Source: Comamonadaceae bacterium
GTDB taxonomy: Bacteria > Pseudomonadota > Gammaproteobacteria > Burkholderiales > Burkholderiaceae_C
Assembly (NCBI GenBank): GCA_947453965.1
Contig: CANGIQ010000016.1
Location: 1-60,263, forward strand
DNA length: 60,263 nt
Direction of reading: 5' to 3'
Positions within the stretch are counted from its first letter, which is position 1. The number at the start of each line of letters is the position of its first letter. A model generated the notes under the pieces. That model was not told the origin of the DNA. It did no database searches and saw only the letters and a program-made list of their open reading frames with translations. This document shows positions 44,013-59,085 of this stretch, piece after piece. The position numbers and the translations under genes are program-made.

Positions 44013-44051
44013 AGATGTAATATATTGCCAGTTATATCCAAAGAGACACAC

Positions 44052-45479: not shown

Positions 45480-45491
45480 TTGAAGCCTTGA

Positions 45492-45527: not shown

Positions 45528-45539
45528 GAAGTTGATTTA

Positions 45540-45567
45540 ATTTTATACGATGTATATTATGTTAAGT
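45540..45567 (+). other. dif-like XerCD site, left prophage junction (attL)
   Basis: Laid out as a dif site: XerC-side arm ATTTTATACGA (45540-45550), central TGTATA (45551-45556), XerD-side arm TTATGTTAAGT (45557-45567). The centre and XerD arm match the E. coli dif right half (TGTATA, TTATGTTAAAT) except for one base; the XerC arm is a poor match. By the logic of Xer integration the left arm would be host and the right arm phage. Confidence 0.8.
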
Positions 45568-45659
45568 TCTTTGCGTACAAAAAATAGCAAAGAAATAACA
45601 AACAAAATAGCAACTCTTAGCCACCCCCTCACACGCATGATGCACACCTTTGTCGCATC

Positions 45660-45899
45660 ATGACCCCATCCATCACTGATCTGTTCGGCGAAGTCCCCAT
45701 CACACATGATGACGTTGACGCCTGGCTGCGCGCAGTCCCTCGCATCGAACCCACCAGTCACCGTGCGAATCAGTACATCAAGTCATACAGCGTGGTCGAA
45801 AAAATAGCCCAAGCAAAACTGCGTGGGCTATTTGATTCCATCGTGACACGGCCAGAACCTCACCCCCAATGGTGGGCACGGTTTCACTGGCGCTATTGA
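45660..45899 (+). CDS. Small phage protein, partner of the repressor in the circular genome
   Basis: 79 residues, MTPSITDLFGEVPITHDDVDAWLRAVPRIEP, then a helical middle and a Trp/Arg-rich end (PQWWARFHWRY). No family recognised. Its ATG overlaps, as ATGA, the stop that the repressor frame reaches when the prophage ends are joined, so in the excised circle it is the second gene of the repressor operon. In the integrated state it is cut off from that promoter. It overlaps the convergent PIN-toxin gene by seven bases. Confidence 0.7.
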   Translation: MTPSITDLFGEVPITHDDVDAWLRAVPRIEPTSHRANQYIKSYSVVEKIAQAKLRGLFDSIVTRPEPHPQWWARFHWRY

Positions 45900-46321: not shown

Positions 46322-46536
46322 GCTCTGCTACCGCCATCACGAATTTTTCTAACCTCGGCCACTGTGTCCACCGCATTCATTGGCAGTTTTGAACGTAAGT
46401 CTTTTAGCTTAGCGAATGCTTTGCGCATGGCCGTAGGGTTTGGGGTGTTGCCTGAAATAACAACGCAATCATCACGCCGCAAATCAATTATTCGCGGATG
46501 ATTTTCAAGGTTATTGAATTCAAGTGTTGCAGGCAT
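46318..46536 (-). CDS. Antitoxin of the PIN toxin (VapB-like)
   Basis: 72 residues from the ATG at 46536, preceded by GGAG. MPATLEFNNLENHPRIIDLRRDDCVVISG has the outline of an AbrB-like or ribbon DNA-binding start, and the C-terminal half (FAKLKDLRSKLPMNAVDTVAEVRKIRDGG) is the likely toxin-binding part. Assigned mainly from its coupling to the PIN gene. Confidence 0.72.
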   Translation of the reverse strand: MPATLEFNNLENHPRIIDLRRDDCVVISGNTPNPTAMRKAFAKLKDLRSKLPMNAVDTVAEVRKIRDGGSRA

Positions 46537-46586
46537 GGAAATTCTCCGGTGGTCAGCGCGATTGTAGAACAAGCCACGTTTTACGC

Positions 46587-46754
46587 CTACCACGCCGATT
46601 TGTCGCCTTGCGGGATGGCCCCACCCCACTGAGCCTTCATCCATGTACGTAATTGTGGCACTTGGCCGATGATGTATGCGGCCAGCACAGCCCCGCCTAG
46701 CACGACCAAGGCCTCTTTGATGACGTCCTTGGGCGATGGCAATATGCTAGCCAT
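46587..46754 (-). CDS. Small phage membrane protein (55 residues)
   Basis: MASILPSPKDVIKEALVVLGGAVLAAYIIGQV is an amphipathic start and one membrane segment, followed by a cationic tail with Trp residues. The ATG at 46754 overlaps the end of the preceding gene by eight bases, which supports this start. No family recognised; likely a virion-membrane or lysis protein. Confidence 0.62.
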   Translation of the reverse strand: MASILPSPKDVIKEALVVLGGAVLAAYIIGQVPQLRTWMKAQWGGAIPQGDKSAW

Positions 46755-46899
46755 GGGAGCATGCATTCTTTTTGAAAACGAAGTCACGCACCTCATCGAG
46801 GTCTCTCCGCATCCAGGCAAGCTTCGTGGTCATTACGCCCCACGTCACCGCGCCGTTGAAAAGAGCTGTGACAAGTGCGATTTGTACAGCTTCACTCAT
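46747..46899 (-). CDS. Small phage membrane protein (50 residues), holin-like
   Basis: Too short for usual gene lists but well placed: ATG at 46899 overlaps the preceding stop (ATGA) and its end overlaps the next start. MSEAVQIALVTALFNGAVTWGVMTTKL is one membrane segment; WMRRDLDEVRDFVFKK is a charged helix. This is the layout of small holins and holin partners. Confidence 0.62.
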   Translation of the reverse strand: MSEAVQIALVTALFNGAVTWGVMTTKLAWMRRDLDEVRDFVFKKNACSHG

Positions 46900-47063
46900 T
46901 GCGCTTGCCCCTCAGGCAATAGCATACCGACCAGCGCGGCCACACCGCCTAAGAGCATGTGCACGGCATCGATTGTGCCGGGCGGAAAGCCAAACAGAAG
47001 GCCGATGGCTCCAAGCGCTGTCCATGTCGATGGCTCTTTAATTCGTGCGATAAGGTAGTTCAT
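46896..47063 (-). CDS. Small phage membrane protein (55 residues)
   Basis: Starts at the ATG at 47063 behind GGAGC. The sequence includes STWTALGAIGLLFGF and DAVHMLLGGVAALVGMLLPE, two short hydrophobic stretches separated by PPGT, a hairpin-like membrane protein resembling phage holins. It ends in ATGA overlap with the next gene. Confidence 0.62.
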   Translation of the reverse strand: MNYLIARIKEPSTWTALGAIGLLFGFPPGTIDAVHMLLGGVAALVGMLLPEGQAQ

Positions 47064-47072
47064 GTTTTGCTC

Positions 47073-47396
47073 CTAAAACTGGTTGAAATCTATGCCGTCG
47101 TTGTTGACCATGGGGTTGTTGTAGCGCGGCGCGTAGGGGTCAGTCACCGGCGGCGGCGCATCGGGTGGATACTGTGGCGTGATGCCCTCTTTCCACGTTG
47201 AGCCGCCTTGCTTGGCCACCTCTTTGACGGCTTCGATGGCTTTGCCAGGCGCACTTGCCACGGTGTCGATGGCATCCTTGACGGACTTGACCGCACCAGA
47301 AAGCGTTTGTTTGACCACGTAGATAGTCACCGCGCCCAATGTCACCATGGCCGCGATTTTGATCATCTCTGCTTGGCCAGCGCCGCTGAGTTTCAT
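47073..47396 (-). CDS. Phage membrane protein with Pro-rich tail (107 residues)
   Basis: MIKIAAMVTLGAVTIYVVKQTL near residues 11-32 is a membrane segment, followed by a helical KSVKDAIDTVASAPGKAIEAVKEVAKQ stretch and a Pro/Asn-rich end (PPDAPPPVTDPYAPRYNNP). Its start overlaps the previous stop by four bases. Probably a virion-membrane protein; no family recognised. Confidence 0.68.
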   Translation of the reverse strand: MKLSGAGQAEMIKIAAMVTLGAVTIYVVKQTLSGAVKSVKDAIDTVASAPGKAIEAVKEVAKQGGSTWKEGITPQYPPDAPPPVTDPYAPRYNNPMVNNDGIDFNQF

Positions 47397-47776
47397 GGCA
47401 TTGGGTAGTAGGTGCCGCTGTTGTAAACGCCATCCATGCCGGGTGCGACTTGGCCAACCATGGCATCGTCTTGCAGCATTGGCCGCGCTGGAGCTGGGGC
47501 GGGTTTTTGTCCCGGCCAGATGCGGTCAATCAAATTGCTAATGACGCTGCCTGCTTGCTGATAGAGCGAGGCCTGCTGCATGTTCTGCTGCTGTTGCATC
47601 TGTAATTGATACTGCCACTGCTGCGCGGCACTCATGCCACTCATGTAGGGCGGCACGATGGGCGAGCCATTGGGCCCCATCACGTACCGCGCTGCGCTGG
47701 AGCTGCGCATGAACATGAAAAATGCGAAGCCAATGACGGCCACGAATAAGAGGTTTGTTTCTTCTTTTTGTTGCAT
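47393..47776 (-). CDS. Phage membrane protein with Gln-rich region (127 residues)
   Basis: N-terminal membrane segment LLFVAVIGFAFFMFM after a short charged start, then AAQQWQYQLQMQQQQNMQQ and a Pro/Ala-rich tail. The ATG at 47776 follows the previous stop by five bases. The Gln-rich helix could pack against capsid or membrane; no family recognised. Confidence 0.68.
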   Translation of the reverse strand: MQQKEETNLLFVAVIGFAFFMFMRSSSAARYVMGPNGSPIVPPYMSGMSAAQQWQYQLQMQQQQNMQQASLYQQAGSVISNLIDRIWPGQKPAPAPARPMLQDDAMVGQVAPGMDGVYNSGTYYPMP

Positions 47777-47781
47777 GATTT

Positions 47782-48420
47782 TTACCAATCAAAAATATCG
47801 GCAGCGCCGCTTAATACGTTGTCAATTACATCTCCGCCAAGGACTTGTGTGGCCAGTGTGATTGATCCAGGTGGCAGACCTGCGGCAGCCCCTAATGCAT
47901 CTTCGGCGGCAGCGTCTCCAAATGCGCTGGCTACCGAAGAATCTGCAATTGCTGATGACCCAAAGTCATAGGTTGATCCACCTGCATCTGATAGCTGATT
48001 AAGCAATGAACCGTCATAAGTGGCAGCATCACCAGCTACAGACGCGTCTGCCGGCGTACCGATACCAAAAAGCTTACCGGCGCTACTGATGATGTCAGGC
48101 GCTTTATTGATCAAGTTGTTGGCTACGCTTGCTTGCTGTGTGACACGAGTTTGCGCAAGCTGCGTCGTACCGTTGTTATATCCGTACGGCACCCCGTAGG
48201 GCATCTGTTGGCCCATACTGCCACCGTAGGGCATCTGTTGGCCCATACCGCCACCGTAGGGCATTTGTGTCCCCATCATGCCGCTACCACCGATGATGAT
48301 GGGCTGCTGTGGCTGCTGTTGCCCCATCATGGATTGATAGGGGTTGACTGGTGCCGCCTTGGACTGCTGCATGAAAAACATCATGGCAGCAACACCGATC
48401 AGGAGAACTTCGGAATCCAT
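47782..48420 (-). CDS. Phage structural membrane protein with GQQMPYGG repeats (212 residues)
   Basis: Begins MDSEVLLIGVAAMMFFMQQSK, a short membrane anchor, followed by Gln/Gly/Met/Pro-rich repeats (MPYGGGMGQQ, MPYGGSMGQQ) encoded by a 30-base tandem repeat, then a Gly/Ala/Asp-rich acidic part. It fits a membrane-anchored minor structural protein. Start at 48420, one base after the lysozyme stop. Confidence 0.7.
   Translation of the reverse strand: MDSEVLLIGVAAMMFFMQQSKAAPVNPYQSMMGQQQPQQPIIIGGSGMMGTQMPYGGGMGQQMPYGGSMGQQMPYGVPYGYNNGTTQLAQTRVTQQASVANNLINKAPDIISSAGKLFGIGTPADASVAGDAATYDGSLLNQLSDAGGSTYDFGSSAIADSSVASAFGDAAAEDALGAAAGLPPGSITLATQVLGGDVIDNVLSGAADIFDW
48196..48270. repeat. 30-base tandem repeat in the structural protein gene
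   Basis: Unit 1 at 48196-48225 and unit 2 at 48226-48255 begin GTAGGGCATCTGTTGGCCCA and differ by one base; a third partial copy follows. In frame, giving repeats of GGSMGQQMPY. Confidence 0.85.
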
Positions 48421-48421
48421 G

Positions 48422-49105
48422 CTATGCCCCCACAATCAGACCGCCAGCATTTGCAAAGGCGGCTGTCAAATCAGCGAGCTTTCGCTCGGGTTGCGCGTAG
48501 CCAGCACCTGGCAGTGATGCCCAAATCTTTGAGCACTTGGTGATGGCAACGTCCACGCGGCCAGCGTCCACATCAGCTAGTGCACCACGCTCACGCACCA
48601 GCTCAAGGGCCGCAGCATCTTGCGATGCAGGGCTAAAGTCAGGTAGCCCAAGGCGAGCGGCGAGCGTATCCCATGTTTTAGCCAAGAATTGATAACGGCC
48701 AGCGGCAGTAGTTTTGAGTTGCTCACCGCGTGAGTTGGTGAAGCTGAACAGTTGGCGCGGATGCACTTCAAGCGAATCAGCTAAGCGGCCACCAAACATC
48801 ATGAGGTAGCCTGCGTCACCGGCGTTGTAGGTTCCTTCGCTGTACGCGATCATGTCAAGAAAAGCTTTTCGGTTTCTCATGGCCACATCGTCGCTAACCG
48901 CTGGGGCGCTTTGGCCAGTGGCGACTTCGTAGGCTTTTTGTGCGGAAACTGTCATATCGTCGATCACTGTGTTTGTTTGTGTTGCAGAGTCATCAAGAGG
49001 CTGCCCAGGATCAGGCTGTGGCACGTAGCGAATAGCTCTGTAAAAGAGCACGCCAGCGAAGGCAATGCAAGCACCTGGGATAAGCCATTTCACGTTTTGA
49101 TGCAT
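48422..49105 (-). CDS. Membrane-anchored lytic transglycosylase (lambda R/GH104-like)
   Basis: 227 residues. An N-terminal membrane segment (LIPGACIAFAGVLFYRAI) and a linker precede a domain that recalls the phage lambda R endolysin: RKAFLDMIAYSEGTYN with the catalytic Glu, AAGRYQFLAKTWD, FSPASQDAAALELVRERGAL and CSKIWASLPGAGYAQ. It cleaves peptidoglycan. The anchor suggests a virion-associated or SAR-like role in DNA delivery or lysis. Confidence 0.88.
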   Translation of the reverse strand: MHQNVKWLIPGACIAFAGVLFYRAIRYVPQPDPGQPLDDSATQTNTVIDDMTVSAQKAYEVATGQSAPAVSDDVAMRNRKAFLDMIAYSEGTYNAGDAGYLMMFGGRLADSLEVHPRQLFSFTNSRGEQLKTTAAGRYQFLAKTWDTLAARLGLPDFSPASQDAAALELVRERGALADVDAGRVDVAITKCSKIWASLPGAGYAQPERKLADLTAAFANAGGLIVGA

Positions 49106-49623
49106 GGCAATAGAGCCACATTACGTGGCCTCGCTTCACTGCCACCGTCAGCATTGATTGAAATACCCGTAGCACTGCTGCCGGTATTTGGTAGACCCCA
49201 GTCAGAATTTGTGTTGGCATTGCCATTCAGTCCGCTGTTTCCAAGTCCATACGTCTTGTAAGAGTGTGTGTGCCCTGGGTCTGTGACACCATGTGAGTGC
49301 GATTTGTTTTGATCACCTTGGAAAGATCCGACTGATCGACCAGCATCAATGCCGCGGCCAGAATCAGCAAAGCGCAAAAACTCGCCACGCAGCTCAGGGA
49401 TACGAAAAGTGGTTGCACCATCACCTGGCGAATACATGCCAGCGGCCCATGCTGCATCAGTAGCGGCAATATTTCCACTCGCTTGCGCATAAGCCCATAG
49501 AGCCGGGTATGCAGCACGTGACAAAAGGCCACCGTTAGCAATCACGTATCCGCTAGGGGCATAAGATTGCAAAAAGCAGCTGATCTCCCCGGTCCGTACG
49601 CTATTCGATGGGATATACAGCAT
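49090..49623 (-). CDS. Phage collar-domain receptor-binding protein
   Basis: 177 residues. GEISCFLQSYAPSGYVIANGGLLSRAAYPALWAYA and FRIPELRGEFLRFADSGRGID are the Phage_Collar fold found at tail-fibre tips; then HSHGVTDPGHTHSYKT is the His-rich metal-binding stretch of such fibres, and RPRNVALLPCIK ends it. In a phage without tail genes it is probably the vertex spike tip. It overlaps the lysozyme gene by 16 bases. Confidence 0.85.
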   Translation of the reverse strand: MLYIPSNSVRTGEISCFLQSYAPSGYVIANGGLLSRAAYPALWAYAQASGNIAATDAAWAAGMYSPGDGATTFRIPELRGEFLRFADSGRGIDAGRSVGSFQGDQNKSHSHGVTDPGHTHSYKTYGLGNSGLNGNANTNSDWGLPNTGSSATGISINADGGSEARPRNVALLPCIKT

Positions 49624-50201
49624 TAGTAGCCTTCCAAGACTAGGACATTCGGATTTGACGCGATGTCACCGATAGCATAGATAGGATGAGCGAACACGCT
49701 CGCAGACATTTCATAGATACTGCCAGGTGGCAAAAAAATACCTTGGGTTGCAATCGCAGCTAATCCAATAGAAAGCCAGACACTTCCAGTAGTAGATTTG
49801 TTTTGGACCAATAAATATCGTCGTGACATCCTCTGCGCCAAAATTTGCTGAGATGCACTTGTGATGGTCATATCACCACCAGACCCATATATATTCAAGA
49901 TTGGGTTAATCGACGTATTTACATTACCGCTCAGCACCATCTGCTGATCCACAAATTCATCACCAGCTACGATGATCGTCCCAGTATTTTGATTACCTGA
50001 TAGGTTAGTCAAACTCAGACGAGAAAACTCAGAGTCTTTAAGGCCCTGCCCTTGCAGTAAGGGTGTTGCCTCACCAAACTCACCTTGCACTTTGATAGGG
50101 CCGCTGGATGACTGCACACGGAAGTATGTTCCACCTGCCTGAATCTGGCATGCGCCATACGGTGGCATCGAGAAGTCGTAGGTTTTAACTGATACGCTCA
50201 T
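49623..50201 (-). CDS. Beta-rich phage structural protein (192 residues)
   Basis: MSVSVKTYDFSMPPYGACQIQAGGTYFRVQSSSGPI and later SRRYLLVQNKSTTGSVWLSIG are strand-rich, as in spike-base or penton proteins. I use the ATG at 50201; a GTG two codons earlier directly abuts the previous stop. It precedes the collar protein with an overlap of one base, so the two may form one vertex complex. Confidence 0.7.
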   Translation of the reverse strand: MSVSVKTYDFSMPPYGACQIQAGGTYFRVQSSSGPIKVQGEFGEATPLLQGQGLKDSEFSRLSLTNLSGNQNTGTIIVAGDEFVDQQMVLSGNVNTSINPILNIYGSGGDMTITSASQQILAQRMSRRYLLVQNKSTTGSVWLSIGLAAIATQGIFLPPGSIYEMSASVFAHPIYAIGDIASNPNVLVLEGY

Positions 50202-50207
50202 AGCCAC

Positions 50208-50510
50208 TCACATTAAAAAGAGAGCACCAGCAGCTAACGCCGAAAGCACCACCATGGGAGATACCCCAGATTTAGCTGCGGGAGTACTTTGGCTTTGCAC
50301 GTTTGAGCGTGCAATACCCTGCACCGACTGCGTACCGTCAGGATTTGCGATCACGAACTGACCAGTCGATTGAGCAACCATCGGATCTTCACCGTTCATG
50401 TTTTGATCTGGTCCGACAATGGTCGTGTTCAGACCGACAAAGAACCGCTGTGCACGCGTCAAGTCGCTATCTTGTGGAATGGCCAACTGTGAATTGACAG
50501 ATACGGTCAT
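50208..50510 (-). CDS. Phage protein with C-terminal membrane anchor (100 residues)
   Basis: A polar domain (LTRAQRFFVGLNTTIVGPDQ) is followed by a hydrophobic C-terminus, GVSPMVVLSALAAGALFLM, a tail anchor. It lies between the capsid candidate and the spike proteins and could join the vertex to the inner membrane. No family recognised. Confidence 0.65.
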   Translation of the reverse strand: MTVSVNSQLAIPQDSDLTRAQRFFVGLNTTIVGPDQNMNGEDPMVAQSTGQFVIANPDGTQSVQGIARSNVQSQSTPAAKSGVSPMVVLSALAAGALFLM

Positions 50511-50520
50511 GGAGACCCCC

Positions 50521-51366
50521 TTAGTACATCGACAGAGGAATCAGCTCTTCGGTCTCGATGGTGATGTTTTCAGTGGCGCTAAAGGTGCCGTAGAAGATGG
50601 CTTGCTGCACACCGGCGCTGGGTCGTGTGTCCCACACGCGGCCAGATTGCACGTTGTCCAAGATAGGATCAAACACAAACATGTTGGCCTGTGGTGAGCG
50701 ACCTGCACGCACCTGAATTTGGTTCATATCAGCACAGGGCAAATCAAACTCAGCCAAGCCATTACGCACCGCTTGTACGCTTGTGAGGTTTGCACTGTAG
50801 ATAAAGAAGCGCTTATAGACGGAACCACCGCCCGATGGGTCGATGTGTGGGATTGGCAGCGCGACCTTGGAGTTAGCCGCTGGCACTGTGTAAGGGATAC
50901 GGTGACGGCGTTGGATCAAGAAACGGAATGATTCTTCACCCGGTACAGCAATAGCGGGCGACAGCTCTGCATAACCAGCCAATGCTGGAGAAGTGGCTCC
51001 GCTTGTAGTCACCTCCAATCGCAACGATGTGATGCCCGATGCAGTGCTCAGGTCAATCGCGCCACTTTGGAATGTATTGATTGTCCGACCTGATCGCTCC
51101 ATGAAGTTGATGCACAAGCGGTTTGCATTGGCTGCATAGCCTTTGTAGATTTCGCTGGCGTCGAGATATGAGCCAGAGCTTTCCCAAATCACTTTGTTGT
51201 TGGCCTTGAGCTGGATCAGCGTGACCATCGACTTAGAAAAAGTTGTACCTGACAACGTCAAGTTGATGGCTTCAAGCGTCGAACCTAAAAAGTTGTTCAG
51301 GTCACAAATCGCAATACCAGAGGCAACAACGTTTTGAAATGGGTTTAAAGGGATGATCTTGTTCAT
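50521..51366 (-). CDS. Candidate double-jelly-roll major capsid protein
   Basis: 281 residues, almost entirely strand-forming, with no enzyme motif: LNPFQNVVASGIAICDL at the start, INLTLSGTTFSKSMVTLIQLK, then a second block from RFLIQRRHRIPYTVP. Two similar-sized halves and the length (PM2 P2 is about 270 residues) fit a double jelly roll; the order of motifs recalls P2 as I remember it. It lies between vertex genes and the ATPase. GGGATG-type leader precedes the ATG. Identity rests on architecture and context. Confidence 0.7.
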   Translation of the reverse strand: MNKIIPLNPFQNVVASGIAICDLNNFLGSTLEAINLTLSGTTFSKSMVTLIQLKANNKVIWESSGSYLDASEIYKGYAANANRLCINFMERSGRTINTFQSGAIDLSTASGITSLRLEVTTSGATSPALAGYAELSPAIAVPGEESFRFLIQRRHRIPYTVPAANSKVALPIPHIDPSGGGSVYKRFFIYSANLTSVQAVRNGLAEFDLPCADMNQIQVRAGRSPQANMFVFDPILDNVQSGRVWDTRPSAGVQQAIFYGTFSATENITIETEELIPLSMY

Positions 51367-51405
51367 CGTGTGCTTTCAGAATTGTGCAAATGGGCTTGGC
51401 AGTGC

Positions 51406-51537
51406 TTAGGCGCGAGAGCCTGGCAAGTACTGGCCAACCACGGGGATTTGCATCACACGGTCTTGGAAGACAGCGATGATGATGAGCGCGGCTGCAACTT
51501 CAGCGACGAAAATGGCTTTGCCTTTGAGGTCTTTCAT
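51406..51537 (-). CDS. Small phage membrane protein (43 residues)
   Basis: MKDLKGKAIFVAEVAAALIIIAVFQDRVM is one membrane segment with a basic start; the end PVVGQYLPGSRA is polar. It starts at ATG 51537 with GGAAC upstream and lies directly before the capsid gene. PM2 and PRD1 carry many proteins of this size in the viral membrane. Confidence 0.65.
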   Translation of the reverse strand: MKDLKGKAIFVAEVAAALIIIAVFQDRVMQIPVVGQYLPGSRA

Positions 51538-51613
51538 GTCGGGTTCCTGTTGGTTGAAAAATTTCGATAAATGAATTTCAACAACAAGAAAACCGCCGCG
51601 CAATACATGCCAA

Positions 51614-51644
51614 CGCCCCTACGTGTAGCCTACGTGTAGGGGCG
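51614..51644. terminator. Stem-loop between ATPase and capsid block
   Basis: CGCCCCTAC (51614-51622) and GTAGGGGCG (51636-51644) are perfect complements, and the 13-base loop can itself pair (GTAG with CTAC). It lies directly after the ATPase gene. Without a T-run it is more likely an mRNA-stabilising or processing hairpin separating early and structural genes than a strong terminator. Confidence 0.55.
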
Positions 51645-51653
51645 AATTTGTGA

Positions 51654-52280
51654 CTATTTGGGGATGGTCACGCGGCCTTCACGCAACACATTCGCCTCAA
51701 AGTCACGCTCAATCCACTCAAGCGGCTGCAAGGCTTTGATGCGCGACACGTCCACGTCGATGTTGTTGGCCACGTACTCACGATGCTTGTCGATTCGCAG
51801 AGCCGACACATGCACCAACGTGCAGTTGGCCAAGAAAGTCTTGTCCACCAGCGCGGGCGTTTGTGTGGTGCCGATGATGTGCACGGCGGCATGGCGTCCG
51901 CTTGTCGTCATCTTTCGCCATGCAGTGGGTGCCCAGCCAGGCGTGGTGACGTTGCTAAGTTCCTCTGCGATGAACACGCAGTTTCCCCATGCATACACCA
52001 GCTCACAGAGCACCTCGAACTCTTTTCGCATGGCCTTCTCCCCTGCCCCGCGCGACACGTAGCGCACGGCCAGAGGGCCACCCTTGGCCGCGATCATGGC
52101 GCGGCGCAATTCGTCAAGCGTACTTACGCGCTTGGCGAACTGGCCGTATTCATCCATGAAGTCCCATGCCACAAACCGTTTTGGCTTGAGCTTTGTGAGC
52201 TGAGACTTAATCCAAAGACCCTTGCCTGAACCGCTGGCCCCGATAGCCGCCCAAATCTTGGCCTTGTTACTGACTGCCAT
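51654..52280 (-). CDS. Genome-packaging ATPase (FtsK/HerA, PRD1 P9-like)
   Basis: 208 residues from the ATG at 52280. Walker A is AIGASGSGKGLWIKSQL near residue 12, Walker B with adjacent acid is NCVFIAEEL near residue 98, and IIGTTQTPALVDKTFLANC carries the sensor polar residue. Small size, the EE after the hydrophobic strand and no membrane segment fit the P9/A32 packaging ATPases of tailless phages. Filamentous-phage Zot proteins share the fold but are larger and membrane-anchored. Confidence 0.78.
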   Translation of the reverse strand: MAVSNKAKIWAAIGASGSGKGLWIKSQLTKLKPKRFVAWDFMDEYGQFAKRVSTLDELRRAMIAAKGGPLAVRYVSRGAGEKAMRKEFEVLCELVYAWGNCVFIAEELSNVTTPGWAPTAWRKMTTSGRHAAVHIIGTTQTPALVDKTFLANCTLVHVSALRIDKHREYVANNIDVDVSRIKALQPLEWIERDFEANVLREGRVTIPK

Positions 52281-52749
52281 CTTTGGTTTCCGCTTGCGCT
52301 TGCGTGTCCTTGGCCGTGGTGCCACCCTTGCGCCGTTGCCACCATGCAGCAATGCGTCCGACCAGTGAGTTTTGCTGCTTGCGTAGCTCACGAATCTTGC
52401 CAGGCACGATTGCCAACGTTGGCACGATGAATGATACCGATGCGATCAGTAAAGCGAACTCAGGCGAATGCGCGGGCGCGTTCCATCCGTGCTTCTCAGC
52501 CACCATGTGCATGTGGTGACCCCACTGTAGGCAGCGCTCCTCGCTGTACACGGGTTTGAGCTCTGGGGCCACCATGGTGAGTACTCCACCAAGCGAGAAC
52601 AACATCACGCCCCACTCCTGCGCCCCCGCCTCGCTTTGCTGTGCAGCCTGTTGCTGCTGCTGATTCGCCTGCTGTTGCTCAGGTGTTGGATTCTCGGCGT
52701 CCACGTCTGCTGTCATGTGGGCTAGGGCCTCTAAACGATCTTCACTCAT
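52267..52749 (-). CDS. Phage membrane protein with Gln-rich N-terminus (160 residues)
   Basis: A long Gln/Ala-rich helix (PEQQQANQQQQQAAQQ) precedes a hydrophobic segment WGVMLFSLGGVLTMVAP and a second one, FALLIASVSFIVPTLAIVPG, with a basic tail. It overlaps the ATPase start by 14 bases and the zinc-ribbon stop by four. Probably a virion-membrane protein. Confidence 0.7.
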   Translation of the reverse strand: MSEDRLEALAHMTADVDAENPTPEQQQANQQQQQAAQQSEAGAQEWGVMLFSLGGVLTMVAPELKPVYSEERCLQWGHHMHMVAEKHGWNAPAHSPEFALLIASVSFIVPTLAIVPGKIRELRKQQNSLVGRIAAWWQRRKGGTTAKDTQAQAETKDGSQ

Positions 52750-53099
52750 GAGAAAAGCCCTCGGCGCTTAGGCGTAGATGTAGCTTGTGCATCTTCGCTA
52801 GGTGTTGGTATAGGTGTAGCCTCTGTAGGTGTAGCCTCTGTAGGTGTAGGCTGTGTAGGTGTAGGCGGTGAATTTTCGTGACGCGTCACGGAAATTGACG
52901 CATCCCCATCCGTAGGTGTAGGCGTAGGCAGGGCACGGGTCTTCTCACTCAGCAACTGGCGCTGGCGGTCTGTGCGTGCATGGTATTGACTGCCGCAGTC
53001 AGGGCAGTAGCGGTAGAGGCATTTGGCGGACTGTTTGACGTGGGCGGATTCAAACCCGCACTCAGGGCAAAGAGTCCGCCCAATCATGGGCGAACTCAT
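52746..53099 (-). CDS. Zinc-ribbon phage protein with Pro/Thr repeat tail
   Basis: 117 residues. TLCPECGFESAHVKQSAKCLYRYCPDCGSQYH has two Cys pairs (CPEC and CPDC) plus an extra Cys, an Ogr/Delta-like zinc ribbon that suggests DNA binding and late-gene activation. The C-terminal half is a Pro/Thr/Glu repeat (TPTEATPTEAT) encoded by GTAGGTGTAGCCTCT repeats. A CGTGACGCGTCACG palindrome lies within the gene near 52877-52890. Confidence 0.75.
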   Translation of the reverse strand: MSSPMIGRTLCPECGFESAHVKQSAKCLYRYCPDCGSQYHARTDRQRQLLSEKTRALPTPTPTDGDASISVTRHENSPPTPTQPTPTEATPTEATPIPTPSEDAQATSTPKRRGLFS

Positions 53100-53104
53100 G
53101 GCCT

Positions 53105-53278
53105 TTACAGAGCCTGCAAGTCGTTCACGTTGACGGCTTCGGTAGAGCTGTCCACATCGAACTTCACGACCACTTCATCGGGATGCTCAGGGCTAACCGT
53201 GTGAACGGTGCCAGCTTGGCCGGTGCGTGGATGATCTTCGGTTTTGACTTTGACTGATTGCCAGACATTGAAGCGCAT
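53105..53278 (-). CDS. Small phage protein with KOW-like fold (57 residues)
   Basis: Not usually listed because of its size, but has GGAG seven bases before the ATG at 53278. MRFNVWQSVKVKTEDHPRTG continues into QAGTVHTVSPEHPDEVVVKF and ends in an acidic helix. The alternating strands and central Gly recall small KOW/SH3-like barrels of filamentous and other small phages. It ends five bases before the zinc-ribbon gene. Confidence 0.68.
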   Translation of the reverse strand: MRFNVWQSVKVKTEDHPRTGQAGTVHTVSPEHPDEVVVKFDVDSSTEAVNVNDLQAL

Positions 53279-53762
53279 GGTTTTTCTCCATTGCGCGGCG
53301 TGGTGGTCTCAAGCCAAATTATGCGCGATTTAAGGCGTTTTGACACCTCGCACCACCCGAGACACCAATTTTTCAAAAAAACGTCTCCTAGCGAGTTTTG
53401 GAGTGCCCTGAGGCCATACGCGGCCAGCACAGACGATTGAAAAAATCTCCTTCGTGCCCTGTCAAACCAAAACACCTCTGAGCGCCGATGTACTCAAGTA
53501 CACCCCACACACCTGCGTGGCGCAAGCTGGGGGCTTCAATGCGCCCTCCCGTGAGGGCTTGCCCCACGGGGGGCTATTAAAAATGGATGTGGATAACTCA
53601 GCGAATAAGCGCGTTCTACGCGCGCGTAATAGAGAAAGGAAGTCCTCATTGATACCCCTGCGGTATACCCTGCGGCATTTACTTGGCTAATCTATCGAAA
53701 CCCGCATGGATAAAGGCCTAGAACTATCCACACCCCTGCGGTAAACCCTGCGGGGTATTCGT
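53279..53762. other. Candidate phage replication origin (484 bases, non-coding)
   Basis: No credible gene. The right half contains an exact DnaA box (TGTGGATAA, 53588-53596), a one-mismatch box (CTATCCACA, 53724-53732) and two pairs of CCCTGCGG repeats. An A/T-richer stretch lies between. This mix is typical of iteron-controlled theta origins on plasmids. It also separates the two leftward gene blocks, so a promoter for the 53,278-45,893 block is expected on its left side. Confidence 0.6.
53656..53753. repeat. Four CCCTGCGG iterons in two pairs
   Basis: CCCTGCGG occurs at 53656-53663, 53668-53675, 53734-53741 and 53746-53753. Within each pair the repeat distance is 12 bases; the pairs are 78 bases apart. 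They are direct repeats, adjoin the 3' end of the winged-helix protein gene and flank a DnaA-like box. Likely binding sites for that protein. Confidence 0.75.
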
Positions 53763-54185
53763 TTAGGCGAGCGATTTTTTTTGCTTTGGTGTGTGCATGT
53801 CTTTGGGTGGTGTGAGCCACAAACGAAGCTGCCCCTGTGCCTCGTTGGTGGTGCTGCGCTTGAGCAAACCCTCGCGCTCCATGTCGTCAATACACCGTCT
53901 CAAAGTCCAATAGGAAGGCCCAGAACGGCGTTTGCCGCGCTCTGGCTGCGGTGGGGTCATCAGCTCCATCAAACGCGCGTAAGAGCCGTAAAACTCGCCT
54001 GTCTCGAACACGCAATGCGCGTGGATGAGCGCGTACAAGTGGAAGGCGTGGCTGTCTCGCAAAACGTGCAGCAAGATGTGCAACACCTCGGCTGAGTAGT
54101 GAGCGAAGCGCGGGACAAATAGAGTCGCCGGCAGTGGTGCACGTCCACCACTGGCACCAGCGGCTGGGGTGTTACGACGCATCAT
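53763..54185 (-). CDS. Winged-helix phage protein, possible replication initiator
   Basis: 140 residues from ATG 54185 (a second ATG follows). LFVPRFAHYSAEVLHILLHVLRDSHAFHLYALIHAHC is helical; GPSYWTLRRCIDDMEREGLLKRSTTNEAQGQLRLWLTP is a clear winged helix with wing. It overlaps the preceding gene by 14 bases and ends nine bases from the iterons, as plasmid Rep genes often do, but it is short for an initiator and carries no nicking or helicase motif. It could instead be a regulator. Confidence 0.6.
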   Translation of the reverse strand: MMRRNTPAAGASGGRAPLPATLFVPRFAHYSAEVLHILLHVLRDSHAFHLYALIHAHCVFETGEFYGSYARLMELMTPPQPERGKRRSGPSYWTLRRCIDDMEREGLLKRSTTNEAQGQLRLWLTPPKDMHTPKQKKSLA

Positions 54186-54351
54186 GCCCCTGAATTCGAG
54201 CCCAAAATTCTTTATCGCGTTTGGCTCTTTGCCGCGCCCTGTACTCACGCGCACGTTGCGCATCAGTCATTGCGTTGGGCTTACGTGGACGTCCGCGCTT
54301 AGGCTTGTCCAGCATGTCAACCGTGTAGAGGTCTTGGGCTTGTTTTGCCAT
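54172..54351 (-). CDS. Small basic phage protein (59 residues)
   Basis: Starts at ATG 54351, read leftward. MAKQAQDLYTVDMLDKPKRGRPRKPNAM contains an AT-hook-like KRGRPRK, followed by a very basic helix (DAQRAREYRARQRAKRDK). Proteins with an N-terminal KRGRP stretch and an Arg/Lys helix are frequent in small phages of this bacterial group. DNA binding is likely. A run of ten C lies just upstream of the start. Confidence 0.68.
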   Translation of the reverse strand: MAKQAQDLYTVDMLDKPKRGRPRKPNAMTDAQRAREYRARQRAKRDKEFWARIQGHDAS

Positions 54352-54367
54352 TACCCCCCCCCGCTGA

Positions 54368-54407
54368 TTTTTCGTGACGTCATGCGGCCGGTAGACGTCA
54401 CGAAAAA
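54368..54407. terminator. Perfect hairpin with TTTTTCGTGACGTC arms
   Basis: TTTTTCGTGACGTC (54368-54381) and GACGTCACGAAAAA (54394-54407) are exact 14-base complements with a 12-base loop. The right arm contains the stop of the gene at 54398. It can act as a terminator in either direction or as an operator; the CGTGACG core recurs at 52877-52890 as CGTGACGCGTCACG. Confidence 0.65.
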
Positions 54408-54610
54408 GATGCTGCCTCTAACGCCTTAGCGAGCGCACGCGCATCGCAAGGCATCAAGGGCACGGGGTAGAACAACGGGTCTTCGCCCGTGGGCGTGTGA
54501 AACGTCAGCACCACACGCTCACCGATATTGGGTAGTGTCACGAGGTCAATCTGCGCACGCATCGCGCGGCCGCGCAAATCGAGCGACATCAAAGGCATTG
54601 AGGCGGTCAT
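54398..54610 (-). CDS. Small phage protein (70 residues)
   Basis: Strong GGAGGTGAC ribosome site before ATG 54610. MTASMPLMSLDLRGRAMRAQIDL, then RVVLTFHTPTGEDPLFYPVPLMPCDARALAKALEAASFS: strands followed by a C-terminal helix, soluble. No family recognised. Coupled to the upstream gene by ATGA. Confidence 0.65.
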   Translation of the reverse strand: MTASMPLMSLDLRGRAMRAQIDLVTLPNIGERVVLTFHTPTGEDPLFYPVPLMPCDARALAKALEAASFS

Positions 54611-54828
54611 GCTGTCACCTCCGCCACCCAGATGATGTGCGTTGGATTGAACGCAGGCGTGCAAAAAAACTTATCTGTGAGTATTGGCCGTGTGCATGTC
54701 TTTGGTTTACTGAAATGGCAACCATCACACCCTGCAATGACTGGATAGCCAAGATACAAAGTTCCATCGTGCAAGACTTCTTTGACGTGCTCTTGCTTTT
54801 GTATGGGGATAGGAAAATTGGAGATCAT
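54607..54828 (-). CDS. Small Cys-containing phage protein (73 residues)
   Basis: Start ATG 54828 behind GGAGGTGTC. The middle has CDGCHFSKPKTC and later KFFCTP, four Cys and a His that could hold a zinc ion. The rest is strand-rich (TLYLGYPVIAG). No family recognised. ATGA overlaps on both sides support it as real. Confidence 0.65.
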   Translation of the reverse strand: MISNFPIPIQKQEHVKEVLHDGTLYLGYPVIAGCDGCHFSKPKTCTRPILTDKFFCTPAFNPTHIIWVAEVTA

Positions 54829-55097
54829 GCTGACACCTCCACACACGAAAGACACTTTGGGAAAAAGCGCTCAAAGGGTGGGCGCCCTTTAGCGAGCCAA
54901 AGCTCTGTTTCGGCTACGTCCACCGCTAGGGATGCAGAGCTGGCTTTGACAGTGATGATGAAGGGGGCATGGTTGTACTCGAACTCGACGCGCCACCGGC
55001 GGTCAGGGTTGAGTGCTTTGTAAAGTACTGAATTCATGTCCACGTCCACGCGACTGCGTGGGTGTACTTGTGTGGGGGCGATGCTGCGGGTGTTCAT
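54825..55097 (-). CDS. Small phage protein (90 residues)
   Basis: MNTRSIAPTQVHPRSRVDVDMNSVLYKALNPDRRWRVEFEYNHAPFIITVKASSASLAVDVAETELWL has alternating strands and a helix; soluble. The ATG at 55097 overlaps the upstream stop by four bases, which decides this start over an ATG three codons earlier. No family recognised. Confidence 0.65.
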   Translation of the reverse strand: MNTRSIAPTQVHPRSRVDVDMNSVLYKALNPDRRWRVEFEYNHAPFIITVKASSASLAVDVAETELWLAKGRPPFERFFPKCLSCVEVSA

Positions 55098-55234
55098 GAT
55101 GCGCACCCATTGGTAATTTTTAAGATATCAAGAATAAAAATTCCCAGAAAAATGAAAGCAAGAAAACAAGTCGCCACCATAGAAATGATCACAACGACCT
55201 TTTCTTCACCGCACAGTCCATCAAGAAATTTCAT
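55094..55234 (-). CDS. Small phage membrane protein (46 residues)
   Basis: Start ATG 55234 with AAGGGGG six bases upstream. A short polar start (MKFLDGLCGEEK) is followed by a long hydrophobic helix VVVIISMVATCFLAFIFLGIFIL and a short tail. ATGA overlaps at both ends. Function unknown. Confidence 0.62.
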   Translation of the reverse strand: MKFLDGLCGEEKVVVIISMVATCFLAFIFLGIFILDILKITNGCAS

Positions 55235-55683
55235 GCTGCACCCCCTTGGGTAGACTGAGGTTTTTCAACTACAGAGGAACCGCCATGATTGATAACGACC
55301 CCAGCAATCCCGCCCCCACTAGCCAACCCGCAGGTGATTTGGCTGTAGCTGCCACGCAAATTGCTACGGCTGTATGCCACTATGTAAACACTCAAAATGA
55401 GATTCATAAACGCGAACAAATCGCTGTTATGCGAAGGCTTGATATGGAAGCGTCCTCCATTCAGTCTGTAAGCATCACAAGCCGCGCAATGCAAATCATC
55501 AGCGTAGTAATCCTTGGCTCTGTACTTTGGTTTGCGATTGATACCAAAGACACGCCACTCATTCATCAAATACTGTCTGTATTTGGAGGCGTAGCGATAG
55601 GTGGATGGTTCAAAAAATAAATTGCTAAGGGCAAGCCCCACGGCAAAGAAAAAAACCAACTGAATTAATTCATTCATGGTCAT
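55231..55683 (-). CDS. First gene of the leftward phage operon (membrane-anchored, unknown)
   Basis: 150 residues. ATG 55683 has GGAGG seven bases upstream, and the stop overlaps the next start by ATGA, both typical of this operon. NELIQLVFFFAVGLALSNLFF is a membrane segment, followed by a Tyr/Arg-rich region and a Gly-rich end. A plus-strand frame (55285-55620) lies codon-on-codon opposite; its valines are almost all GTA, which is unlike the neighbours and suggests that the minus strand is the coding one. Tyr here is mostly TAC. Confidence 0.55.
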   Translation of the reverse strand: MTMNELIQLVFFFAVGLALSNLFFEPSTYRYASKYRQYLMNEWRVFGINRKPKYRAKDYYADDLHCAACDAYRLNGGRFHIKPSHNSDLFAFMNLILSVYIVAYSRSNLRGSYSQITCGLASGGGIAGVVINHGGSSVVEKPQSTQGGAA

Positions 55684-55784
55684 GGTGGTCCTCCGCGCCG
55701 CTGCCCTTTAGGGTGACTGCCCCACCTCGAAATGAGGGAAGGACCAACGACGCCGCAAATTGAGTGTTTGGGGCAGTCGGGCGG

Positions 55785-55874
55785 AAGATATCACGGAATC
55801 TCCGTATTAGTCAATAGTCACCGTTATTACGGACAGAATTCAGTATTGACGTACGGAGTCAATGGGATATGCTT
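55785..55874. promoter_or_regulatory. Lysogeny switch: divergent promoters with four repressor half-sites
   Basis: Leftward promoter: TTGACT (-35, complement of 55809-55814), 18-base spacer, TATCTT (-10, complement of 55785-55790). Rightward promoter: TTGACG (55846-55851), 16-base spacer, TATGCT (55868-55873). Half-sites of YACGGA occur at 55792-55797, 55801-55806 (inverted), 55828-55833 and 55852-55857; the first two form the palindrome ACGGA-N3-TCCGT inside the leftward spacer and the last lies in the rightward spacer. This is the layout of a CI/Cro-type operator region. Confidence 0.72.
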
Positions 55875-55902
55875 CGGGCATCACTCAGGAAGGACCACCA
55901 CC

Positions 55903-56193
55903 ATGAAAGCATCTGCTTGGATTGATCGCGTCAAAACAGCCAAGGGCTGGGAATCAGACTATCGCGCCGCAAAAGAACTTGGATTCAGCCCTAACACAAT
56001 CAGTAGCTATCGTAGGGGCAAGAGCATTACGTTCGATGAAAACTCAGCGGTGAAAGTCGCTGACATATTGGGTATTGACCCCATCGTCGTTTTAGCTGAC
56101 CAAGCGATGGAACATGCCAAATCAGAGCCCGCAAAAAAGGCTTGGGCCACTGCCCTTGAGAAGCTCGGCGCGAGTCAGCTGTATATTATGTAA
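55903..56193 (+). CDS. Phage repressor, helix-turn-helix (truncated by integration)
   Basis: 96 residues from ATG 55903 behind AGGAAGGA. WIDRVKTAKGWESDYRAAKELGFSPNTISSYRRGKSITFDENSAVKVADILGIDP is a Cro/CI-like helix-turn-helix; a helical C-terminal part follows (VVLADQAMEHAKSEPAKKAWATALEKLG). The last codons (CTG TAT ATT ATG TAA) lie in the right dif-like site, so the stop belongs to host DNA. Joining the prophage ends would replace it with 33 more codons, read from 45562 to 45660, ending FVAS and stopping at 45661-45663. Confidence 0.82.
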   Translation: MKASAWIDRVKTAKGWESDYRAAKELGFSPNTISSYRRGKSITFDENSAVKVADILGIDPIVVLADQAMEHAKSEPAKKAWATALEKLGASQLYIM

Positions 56194-56196
56194 AGT
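56169..56196 (+). other. dif-like XerCD site, right prophage junction (attR)
   Basis: XerC-side arm CGCGAGTCAGC (56169-56179), centre TGTATA (56180-56185), XerD-side arm TTATGTAAAGT (56186-56196). The centre and first six bases of the right arm are identical to attL. The right arm, with its in-frame TAA, would be host sequence. The left arm is coding sequence of the repressor and does not look like a canonical XerC site, as is usual for phages that use Xer. Confidence 0.78.
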
Positions 56197-56201
56197 TAAC
56201 A

Positions 56202-56235
56202 ATCGGTTCAATCAATCACCTAGATGAGAACCGAT
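56202..56235. repeat. Inverted repeat upstream of feoA
   Basis: ATCGGTTC (56202-56209) and GAACCGAT (56228-56235) are perfect 8-base complements with an 18-base loop, in host sequence just past attR. It may be an operator or a remnant of the terminus region. No Fur-box-like sequence is obvious between it and feoA. Confidence 0.5.
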
Positions 56236-56285
56236 CTCGTTTAAAATTACTACCCGTTACATCTCTTCTTTGACTTGGTATCTAC

Positions 56286-56534
56286 ATGAATCTCGCCGAG
56301 GCTCCACTCAACACCGCTTGGCGTATTCTGAAGGTTCAACCCCCGCAAGAACAAAGCGATTTGACGCAGCAACTCGAAGAGATTGGCTTTTTGCCTGGCG
56401 AGTTGGTGTCTGTGCTCACGCATGGCTATCCTGGTCACGACCCTTTGGTCGTACGTGTAGGCCTTTCCACCTTCGCTTTACGACGTGCTGAGGCCCAGGC
56501 CATCCAGCTGCAAGAGAAAGCCCCGCATGCGTGA
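56286..56534 (+). CDS. feoA: Ferrous iron transport protein A
   Basis: 82-residue SH3-like cytosolic protein that assists FeoB. ILKVQPPQEQSDLTQQLEEIGFLPGELVSVL and PLVVRVGLSTFALRRAEAQAI are typical of FeoA. It overlaps feoB by eight bases. Confidence 0.9.
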   Translation: MNLAEAPLNTAWRILKVQPPQEQSDLTQQLEEIGFLPGELVSVLTHGYPGHDPLVVRVGLSTFALRRAEAQAIQLQEKAPHA

Positions 56535-58422
56535 AGCAAAGATTCATCTTCACCCTTCAGGCCCCTTGGTGGCCTTGGTGGGCAATCCCAACTGCGGTAA
56601 AACCGCCCTGTTCAATTTACTCACCGGCAGCCACCAAAAAGTCGCGAATTACGCTGGCGTGACGGTCGAGCGCAAAGAAGGCAAAGTCATCCAGCCCAAT
56701 GGCAAGCACCTGCGTTTGTTGGATTTGCCTGGCACCTACAGCTTGTACCCACGTTCCCAAGACGAGCGCGTGACCTGCAACGTGCTCATGGGTCAAGCCG
56801 AAGGCGAAAAGCGCCCTGACGTGGTGGTTTGTGTGGTGGACGCCACCAATTTGCGCCGTAATTTGCGCTTGGTGTTGGCCGTCAAACGACTGGGGCTACC
56901 CACAGTCTTGGTGCTGAACATGTCTGATGTGGCCGAGCGACGTGGCCTGAACATTGACCCCCAGCAACTGTCTGCCGAATTGGGCCTGCCCGTGGTGACC
57001 AGCGTGGGCGTGAAAACAGGTGGCGATGAGGCCTTGCGCGCATGGCTGGCACAAGAGCCGTGGCGTCAAGCAACTGCCACGGCTGCAAGCGAATTTGCAC
57101 CCAGCAATGAGTCAAGCCAAACCGCGGCCGATCACCAAGTGGTGCAAGGTATTTTGCAGCGCATGGGCTTGGACCAGCTGGTGCCTGACCCCTTGAGTGA
57201 CCGCTTAGACCGCGTTTTGCTGCACCCCGTGCTGGGGCAGTTGATCTTGGTGCTGGTGCTGTTTTTGGTTTTCCAGGCTGTCTTTAGCTGGGCTGAAGCG
57301 CCGATGGAAGCCATCAAGTCCATGACCGAATGGAGCGCAGACCAGGCCCGTGCTTGGTTGCCCAACACCTGGTGGCAAAGCCTGTTGGTCGATGGCGTGA
57401 TTGCGGGTGCGGGCGGCGTGGTGGTGTTTTTGCCGCAAATTTTGATTTTGTTTTTCTTTATCTTGATTCTGGAAGAGTCGGGCTACCTGCCCCGTGCGGC
57501 GTTCTTGCTCGATCGCATCATGGGTTCGGTGGGCTTGTCTGGGCGCTCTTTCATCCCTTTGTTGTCGAGTTTTGCCTGCGCCATTCCCGGCATCATGGCC
57601 ACCCGCACAATTGCCAACACGCGGGACCGCATGGTCACGATTTTGATCGCGCCCTTGATGACCTGCTCCGCCCGTCTGCCGGTCTATACCCTGTTGATCT
57701 CCGCGTTTATTCCCGCAGTGCGCGTCTACGGCTTGGAGCTCCAAGGCTTGGTGTTGTTGGCGCTTTACATCGCCGGCATTGTGGGTGCCATGGGTGTGGC
57801 TTGGTGCTTGAAGGTCATGACGCAGGCTGGGCGACAGGTGCGTCCTTTGATGATGGAGCTGCCCAGCTACCACCTGCCCACGGTGCGCAACGTGGCCATT
57901 GGCCTGTGGCAAAGGGTGCAGATTTTCATGCGCCGTGTGGGCGGCATTATTTTGATCTTGACCATCGCGCTGTGGTTTTTGGCCAGTTTCCCAACCCCCC
58001 CAGAAGGCGCCACCCAAGCCGCGATTGAATACAGCTTTGCCGGCTGGTTGGGCCATGCCCTTGCCGTGGTATTTGAGCCGATTGGCTTTAACTGGCAAAT
58101 CAGCCTGGCCCTGGTACCTGGCATGGCTGCGCGTGAAGTGGCGGTGAGCGCTTTGGGCACGGTGTATGCGCTGTCGTCCACCGGCGACAACACCTCTGAA
58201 CTCTTGGCGCCCATCATTGCCCATGCTTGGAGCACGGCAACCGCCCTGTCCTTGCTGGCGTGGTTTGTATTTGCACCGCAATGCCTGTCGACCATTGCCG
58301 CCATCAAGCGCGAAACCGGTGGCTGGACCATGCCCCTTGTGGCATTGACCTACCTCTTCGCCCTCGCCTATGTGGCCGCATTCATTACCTACCGCATCGC
58401 CGTGTGGGCTGGCTTGGGCTGA
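56527..58422 (+). CDS. feoB: Ferrous iron transporter FeoB
   Basis: 631-residue inner-membrane Fe(II) importer. The N-terminal G domain has G1 GNPNCGKTALFNLLTG, G3 LDLPGTYSL and G4 NMSD; the membrane part has the two Gate domains (SGRSFIPLLSSFACAIPGIMATR with the conserved Cys). Somewhat shorter than E. coli FeoB (773), as in many betaproteobacteria. I use ATG 56527, inside the end of feoA. No feoC follows. Confidence 0.95.
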   Translation: MREAKIHLHPSGPLVALVGNPNCGKTALFNLLTGSHQKVANYAGVTVERKEGKVIQPNGKHLRLLDLPGTYSLYPRSQDERVTCNVLMGQAEGEKRPDVVVCVVDATNLRRNLRLVLAVKRLGLPTVLVLNMSDVAERRGLNIDPQQLSAELGLPVVTSVGVKTGGDEALRAWLAQEPWRQATATAASEFAPSNESSQTAADHQVVQGILQRMGLDQLVPDPLSDRLDRVLLHPVLGQLILVLVLFLVFQAVFSWAEAPMEAIKSMTEWSADQARAWLPNTWWQSLLVDGVIAGAGGVVVFLPQILILFFFILILEESGYLPRAAFLLDRIMGSVGLSGRSFIPLLSSFACAIPGIMATRTIANTRDRMVTILIAPLMTCSARLPVYTLLISAFIPAVRVYGLELQGLVLLALYIAGIVGAMGVAWCLKVMTQAGRQVRPLMMELPSYHLPTVRNVAIGLWQRVQIFMRRVGGIILILTIALWFLASFPTPPEGATQAAIEYSFAGWLGHALAVVFEPIGFNWQISLALVPGMAAREVAVSALGTVYALSSTGDNTSELLAPIIAHAWSTATALSLLAWFVFAPQCLSTIAAIKRETGGWTMPLVALTYLFALAYVAAFITYRIAVWAGLG

Positions 58423-59085
58423 TCACTCGCCGTTTTGTTGAATTTCCCAGGACTCAATGAAAGCGCGCAAATAAAACGCACTTTGCGCATGGCCAGCCGT
58501 TAGAGCCAAGTCTAGGGCTGATGCATGGGCTTGATTTCTGAGCGTGGGATCGGCCCCCTCCTCCAACAACAACTTCACCGCCAAAGGCGGTGCGTAGTAC
58601 GCCGCCATCATCAGTGGTGTGGTGCCGTTAGGCGACTCGGCATCGATGTAAGCATTGTTTTCCAACAGCAAACGCATCATGGCGGTATGGCCTTTGGTGG
58701 CTGCGTAATGCAGCGGCGCCCAGCCTTTGCGGTTGACTTCCGCACCCCGCTCAATCAGCTTGTTGGCCAACTCCAGTTGGTTGCCGATGGCCGCCAGCAT
58801 CAGCGGTGTTTCACCCGCTTCGTTGACACACTCAACCTGGGTTTGGGCCTGGCTGGCCAAGTACATGGCAGACTTGATCGACCCCGATTTGATCGCCAAG
58901 ATCAGCGCAGGCACGCCCTTTTCGTTGGGCGTGTTGGGGTCAAAGCCACGCAGCACCAGCTTATGAATGTCTTCTGGGCGGTCGAAATGAATGGCCTTGA
59001 AAAAGTCATCATAAGAGCCTGCGATGGATAAAGAATATCCAATAAAAACATATAGATAAATAAAATACTTAAAGTAATTTTTCAT
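58423..59085 (-). CDS. Secreted ankyrin-repeat protein
   Basis: 220 residues with a signal peptide (FIYLYVFIGYSLSIAG) and about five ankyrin repeats, e.g. GETPLMLAAIGNQLELANKLIERGAEVN and APLHYAATKGHTAMMRLLLENNAYI. Likely a periplasmic protein-interaction module. Its stop abuts the stop of feoB; its start overlaps the tatD stop by ATGA. Confidence 0.88.
   Translation of the reverse strand: MKNYFKYFIYLYVFIGYSLSIAGSYDDFFKAIHFDRPEDIHKLVLRGFDPNTPNEKGVPALILAIKSGSIKSAMYLASQAQTQVECVNEAGETPLMLAAIGNQLELANKLIERGAEVNRKGWAPLHYAATKGHTAMMRLLLENNAYIDAESPNGTTPLMMAAYYAPPLAVKLLLEEGADPTLRNQAHASALDLALTAGHAQSAFYLRAFIESWEIQQNGE

Follow-up and report, generated by a model that had tools for sequence, protein, structure and literature searches.

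The window, the whole stretch of 60,263 nucleotides that was analysed, carries a non-tailed, corticovirus-like prophage of 10.6 kb, identified as such from its sequence and inserted in the dif site of the host. Its main features are listed in Table 1.

Table 1. Positions of the features discussed, in window coordinates except for the last two rows, which refer to the phages named.
Feature	Position	Strand	Basis
attL	45540..45567	+	host XerC arm 45540-45550, central TGTATA, phage XerD arm TTATGTTAAGT 45557-45567, core 45551-45562
Tail-coding stretch, 33 codons and TGA continuing the repressor frame after joining	45562..45663	+	joined ends; first base common to core; homologous tail in circular L002
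79-residue partner gene	45660..45899	+	ATG overlaps the TGA of the tail as ATGA; homologs in L002, L013, L086
Major capsid protein, PM2 P2-type double jelly roll	50521..51366	-	Pfam P2_N 1.9e-19, P2_C 5.1e-23
Packaging ATPase	51654..52391	-	phrog_2666 E=1.2e-25
Predicted repressor, XRE-type HTH, lysogen form of 96 residues	55903..56193	+	phrog_638 E=2.1e-21; HTH_3 0.00047, under Pfam cut-off
attR	56169..56196	+	phage coding sequence replacing XerC arm 56169-56179, central TGTATA, host XerD arm TTATGTAAAGT 56186-56196, core 56180-56191
PM2 (L140), dif-like core by pattern	747-757	-	~93 bases downstream of HTH gene, within small annotated orf b
NO16-like VIB93 (L102), dif-like core by pattern	near 3300	-	about a dozen bases downstream of HTH gene

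The prophage and its attachment sites

The element measures 10,629 bases from one core copy to the other and combines a capsid protein of the PM2 P2 type, a packaging ATPase and a genome of about 10 kb, the features of corticovirus-like (Vinavirales) phages. Profile matches revealed lysozyme-like and collar-like proteins between the core copies as well. No integrase or recombinase scored above the cut-off in the 20 prophage proteins scanned, a set that covers the small ORFs only partly, and no Rfam family matched within window positions 44000-58500. When the capsid protein was used as query, one viral contig (L002, see below) and two weak phage records were matched. Beside attL, at 45893-46644 on the minus strand, a gene for a PIN-domain protein (Pfam PIN, E=1.5e-7) overlaps a gene of 108 residues; the two are perhaps a toxin-antitoxin pair, and neither was matched in L002.

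The core, TGTATATTATGT, is 12 bases long and occurs exactly twice on the plus strand of the window, where 0.01 copies are expected. A search of the whole assembly (2.95 Mb, 47 contigs) with a dif-like pattern returned the same two copies and no others. The left prophage end assigned in the first-pass annotation, 45551, was confirmed, but the right core copy begins at 56180 and not at 56179.

The host flanks were joined and searched against 61 genomes, 25 of which matched, including that of the window itself, and all of these belong to one genus. One place was taken from each of 20 of the 24 other matching genomes; every one contains a single core, with no more than one mismatch, and its left arm is conserved, mostly ATTTGATACGA-like. 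In three of them (L119, L120 and L127) this dif follows the aldehyde dehydrogenase gene that also borders the window prophage, and the empty site is therefore observed. We thus identify attB by sequence comparison as the dif of the genus; integration at the host dif is characteristic of XerCD-dependent integrative elements. Insertion of the prophage by host XerCD would fit these observations, since attB is the dif of the genus, is seen empty in three relatives, and no recombinase was found in the 20 proteins scanned.

The two arms of the site differ in conservation. Over 17 loci with a forward-oriented dif, the XerD arm contains 17.9 bits of information on host and phage sides alike, whereas the XerC arm contains 10.4 bits on the host side versus 4.1 on the phage side. 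The attP looks like a site with only a XerD arm, its XerC arm not being recognisable. The Vibrio element TLC uses a site of this kind. A promoter-like sequence (TTGATT-17-TATTAT, 45532-45560, plus strand) spans the dif at attL, through which the host dif might drive the partner gene in the lysogen; such matches were not above the level of shuffled sequences (6 found, 8.4 expected).

The predicted repressor gene and its partner in prophage and circle

The att core lies in the final codons of the gene at 55903-56193, whose product is predicted to be a repressor from its family and position; a DUF3693 match to it is also present, under the Pfam cut-off, and our literature search found no paper on DUF3693. 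In the prophage the frame ends CTG TAT ATT ATG TAA, with the TAA (56191-56193) supplied by the host XerD arm. When the prophage ends are joined the frame reads ATG TTA AGT TCT TTG instead and continues for 33 further codons to the TGA at 45661-45663, giving a predicted protein of 129 residues. The first-pass annotation had proposed that integration rewrites the C-terminus of the repressor and splits its operon. Our recomputation reproduced the joined frame and the ATGA overlap with the 79-residue gene, and thus the change from 129 to 96 residues. Taken by itself, a 33-codon open frame is unremarkable (71st percentile of random frames), and the weight of the finding therefore comes from relatives.

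One of these is the IMG/VR contig L002, which has a terminal repeat of 127 bases and closes at 9,947 bases. It contains a single core, inside the repressor gene, and the frame reads through it to 125 residues (a tail of 29), followed by ATGA and a partner 82% identical to that of the window. The uninterrupted frame coupled to the partner gene, which the first-pass annotation suggested looking for in free phage DNA, is thus present in L002, and the split of the operon likewise holds: joined ends and circular contig both run from repressor through ATGA to partner. The L002 contig is broken precisely where the core ends, with the 127-base overlap; an assembler would, we infer, produce such a break if the sample held circular and integrated copies.

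A database protein (P0007) from a cluster whose longest contig is 284 kb consists of the first 96 residues of the L002 repressor and stops at the core. Another, P0002, has the 29-residue tail of L002 letter for letter. As these identical tails follow clearly different DNA-binding halves, the comparison suggests that immunity specificity was swapped and the tail kept. The tails of the window and L002 share 13 of 29 residues, and their nucleotide differences are distributed 15/11/14 over the codon positions. A third-position excess is therefore absent; this test gave no signal of purifying selection on the window/L002 tail, and we do not count it as support. In the predicted structure of P0002 a confident helical HTH core (blocks of at least 90 up to residue 80) is followed, after the att core, by a low-confidence linker and a short helix; a fold search returned generic XRE-type HTH chains only (best E 0.032, none at or below 0.001).

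The core-derived peptide was present near the end of 55 of 70 database homologs and missing in 15. Of the 55, 24 end exactly at the peptide, 2 within 3 residues, and 29 continue for 9-40 residues beyond it. Contigs of more than 12 kb carry 8 of the 26 short forms and none of the 29 long forms (p=0.0013), where some short forms on small contigs may have been cut by contig ends. No contig carrying a long form exceeds 11,738 bases, about the size of a free phage genome. Mis-assembly was considered as a source of the two forms but dropped, since L002 and the bimodal homologs are independent evidence for the design. A corresponding pair exists among filamentous phages: the gene in the circular record of VfO3K6 encodes 148 residues, and a near-identical gene in VALG_phi6, a linear record presumably derived from a prophage, stops after 122 residues, at CILC. 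The window repressor itself gave no tblastn match among phage records at E 1e-5; two other family members retrieved weak relatives in 9 and 50 records at E 0.01. In one branch of the family (P0013, P0017, P0021, P0027, P0033 and others in alignment A2) a hydrophobic, Ala-rich segment lies between HTH and core and could anchor the repressor in the membrane.

Homologs of the partner gene are found in L002 (identity given above), L013 (50%) and L086 (48%). A protein search returned two proteins, one of them that of the window itself, and the match of the partner to DUF3701 is far below threshold (E=0.084). By inspection, no Shine-Dalgarno-like sequence precedes the gene in the window or in L002. 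The first-pass annotation described ATGA coupling as used throughout this phage, which did not hold: among seven gene-pair junctions inspected, ATGA occurs once (52746-52749), TTGA once (46318-46321) and a one-base overlap once, the other four having none of these. In L013 the homologous partner begins 51 bases past the repressor stop; as judged from this locus, ATGA coupling of repressor to partner is not general. An ORF of at least 79 residues starts at most 80 bases from the repressor stop in 15 of the 17 in-register circle forms (exceptions L074 and L081); it overlaps that stop in only 5 of the 15.

Related loci and signs of selection

In all, 47 loci containing a regulator match were surveyed: the window, nine further loci, 36 regions and L139, the one used of the four genomes matched by the DUF3693 model among 369 of the class. 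The 36 regions cover 36 of 58 regulator matches other than our own. An att pair was found in 28 loci and none in 19, several of which are on short contigs. The att site lies within the regulator gene in 21 of the 28, which is not an unbiased rate since the first 20 regions were picked mostly for a core near the gene; 19 of the 21 are of dif type. In the other seven (L015, L079, L086, L088, L094, L095 and L100) it lies 8-42 bases past the regulator stop.

By similarity searches, six of the in-gene loci are corticovirus-like (the window, L007, L013, L070, L072 and L074) and twelve filamentous (L014, L067, L068, L069, L078, L081, L082, L085, L090, L091, L096 and L139), L071 and L076 received no class, and L101 completes the set. 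Three of the seven after-stop loci were compared in this way, L079, L086 and L094, and all three are corticovirus-like. All three forward frames of the core are used, giving LYIM, CILC or YYVK, and it is apparently read in reverse as well (L101 and L139; LYIV, YTSY and IHRI in database proteins). In L090 and L091 the last regulator codons consist of a tRNA-like sequence (peptide WRKGGDSNPR) that is repeated at the opposite prophage end, and the C-termini of P0010, P0024-P0026 and P0039 are similar tRNA-like peptides. The same combination of repressor and att site thus seems to work with a tRNA site.

The lysogen form is shorter than the circle form in 19 of the 21 loci. It is longer in L085 and L096, where longer host-encoded ends are gained, and the two forms are nearly equal in L072 and L101; "shorter in the lysogen" is therefore not the simple rule, and the decisive feature would be loss of the phage tail rather than protein length.

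Several signs of selection were noted. Of the 17 forward-dif loci, 9 (the window, L013, L014, L067, L068, L069, L071, L074 and L078) have an in-frame stop behind the core that comes from the host XerD arm, and none has one from the phage arm (sign test p=0.004); in 6 of the remaining 8 loci the arms are identical. In four groups (P0018/P0022, P0017/P0020, P0013/P0019 and P0052/P0055/L007) one tail peptide follows different core frames. Circle tails have 20-49 open codons, and lysogen continuations have 0 in 11 of 21 loci; tail lengths by themselves are only mildly non-random (KS p=0.01). Finally, Ala is the C-terminal residue of the circle form in 8 of 21 loci (p=0.014) and of 17 of the 29 long database forms (p=3e-7). 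After removal of similar tails the count is 21 of 42, compared with 1 of 21 lysogen forms and 48 of 294 (16%) other prophage ORFs, the latter being mechanical ORFs of at least 90 residues from the 28 loci with an att pair. The window tail itself ends in AS, not AA. Tails ending in Ala are compatible with a degradation signal; the support that they lend to this idea, raised in the first-pass annotation, is purely statistical.

Proposed mechanism and relation to known systems

On balance we favour the reading that insertion at dif, by the predicted action of host XerCD, leaves the 96-residue repressor, and that the 129-residue form made by the circle is destabilised or weakened by its tail. XerCD would recombine an attP that has a central region and a XerD arm but no recognisable XerC arm. 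The tailed repressor would act weakly or be lost quickly, probably owing to a degradation signal at its C-terminus, and incoming or replicating circles would therefore remain derepressed. The trimmed repressor would be stable, keeping the prophage silent and the cell immune, and insertion itself would thus be the on-switch for immunity. The partner would be translated by coupling in the circle, a supply that the lysogen would lose, and excision would restore both the tailed repressor and the coupling. A wider version, to which we give somewhat less than even standing, is that of an integrase-free, mobile lysogeny sensor in two virus realms, in which the att site lies in the repressor, a stop from the host dif removes a degradation tail and immunity arises only after insertion, with a version at tRNA sites too.

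The extra residues encoded by the circle may instead be without regulatory effect. We regard this as unlikely: it would not account for in-frame stops coming from host arms (9/17) and never from phage arms, for the four groups in which one tail peptide is preceded by different core frames, or for the bias towards Ala ends, although it agrees with the missing codon-position signature in the window/L002 tail, with open lengths inside the random range and with the 7 of 28 loci, as well as PM2 and NO16, in which the site lies just beyond the gene. A division of labour, with a stable long form acting in the circle as regulator of replication or of other genes and a trimmed form specialised for immunity, was Yamada's hypothesis for ORF13 of RSS0 (PMC3816273), and the family branch with a hydrophobic segment before the core is in line with it, as the protein end could localise the repressor. 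The bias towards Ala ends and the low-confidence tail better fit a removable tag, and no domain binding a ligand or partner was recognised within the tail, which makes this alternative rather improbable.

The split of the operon might also be the main effect, disconnecting the second gene from the repressor transcript, with the changed repressor end a by-product. The ORF close behind the repressor in 15 of 17 circle forms, the partner without a Shine-Dalgarno-like sequence in the window and L002, and the position of the PM2 dif-like site between the HTH gene and a DUF3653 gene are in agreement with this. It leaves the avoidance of stops and the Ala ends unexplained, however, and with the repressor stop overlapped by the next ORF in just 5 of 15 cases we consider it very improbable.

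The favoured mechanism, trimming of a destabilising tail, resembles that of mycobacteriophage BPs, in which attP lies in the repressor ORF, an ssrA-like tag directs degradation of the 136-residue viral repressor and the prophage form of 103 residues is the active one, according to the text available to us (PMC4557955). The window and L002 likewise have attP within the repressor ORF and a C-terminally shorter lysogen product (96 versus a predicted 129 residues here, 96 in P0007 versus 125 in L002). That BPs and the window both lose 33 residues is surely coincidence. BPs, as that text describes it, belongs to the tailed mycobacteriophages, encodes its own integrase and has a proven ssrA-like tag, whereas the window has a host dif site, a PM2-type capsid, no integrase among the 20 proteins scanned and a tail whose function is inferred. 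As no recombinase exceeded the cut-off in those proteins, we would say that the window system works like integration-dependent immunity of the BPs type, not that it is a member of it.

For filamentous phages, the available text of the sources indicates that a regulator altered by integration is already known. The attP of the Ralstonia phage RSS0 lies inside ORF13, and a new stop upon integration shortens the product from 156 to 130 residues, with a functional hypothesis (PMC3816273, Yamada 2013). As in the window, the 3' end of a regulator gene carries a dif-type attP and integration creates a stop, but RSS0 is a filamentous ssDNA phage and a single case, and we found no analysis of tails or arms in the parts of that paper at hand. 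This was the only account of truncation of a filamentous repressor found in our literature search. In XacF1 attP is inside the regulator ORF12 (PMC4076744), in the VGJ record NC_004736 it is annotated inside ORF154, and in VAI integration extends the hypothetical ORF9 (PMC7412436). As far as the available text goes, these three resemble the window in having a dif-type attP in a phage ORF, or an ORF altered by integration at dif-like sites, and differ in being filamentous and, for VAI, in the lengthening of a hypothetical ORF instead of the trimming of a repressor.

PM2, NO16 and Jorvik share with the window the type of capsid and ATPase, dif-like sites, proposed use of host XerCD and small HTH regulators nearby, again as described in the sections available. 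In PM2 and NO16, unlike in the window, the dif-like core is downstream of the HTH gene and not within it (Table 1); a position near the repressor is therefore common even where the site is outside the gene. The accessible portions of the literature on NO16, Jorvik and marine Vibrio corticovirus-like phages describe no rewriting of a repressor, and those of PMC2605562 and PMC10011098 contained no relevant statement. Among the literature matches listed, what is new is the occurrence in a corticovirus-like, non-tailed phage, the bias of stops towards host arms, the tail statistics and the spread over two realms.

If the proposed mechanism is right, immunity by integration is not confined to tailed actinophages with their own integrase, but would be a general solution in unrelated small viruses that borrow the chromosome-resolution system of the host. 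It would account for the choice between lysis and lysogeny in phages of 7-12 kb without an integrase or a complex switch, and the uneven C-termini of this regulator family in databases would be explained. It predicts that the end of the repressor in a lysogen is set by the host dif sequence together with the frame in which the core is read, and annotation of prophages only would reveal just one of the two repressor proteins.
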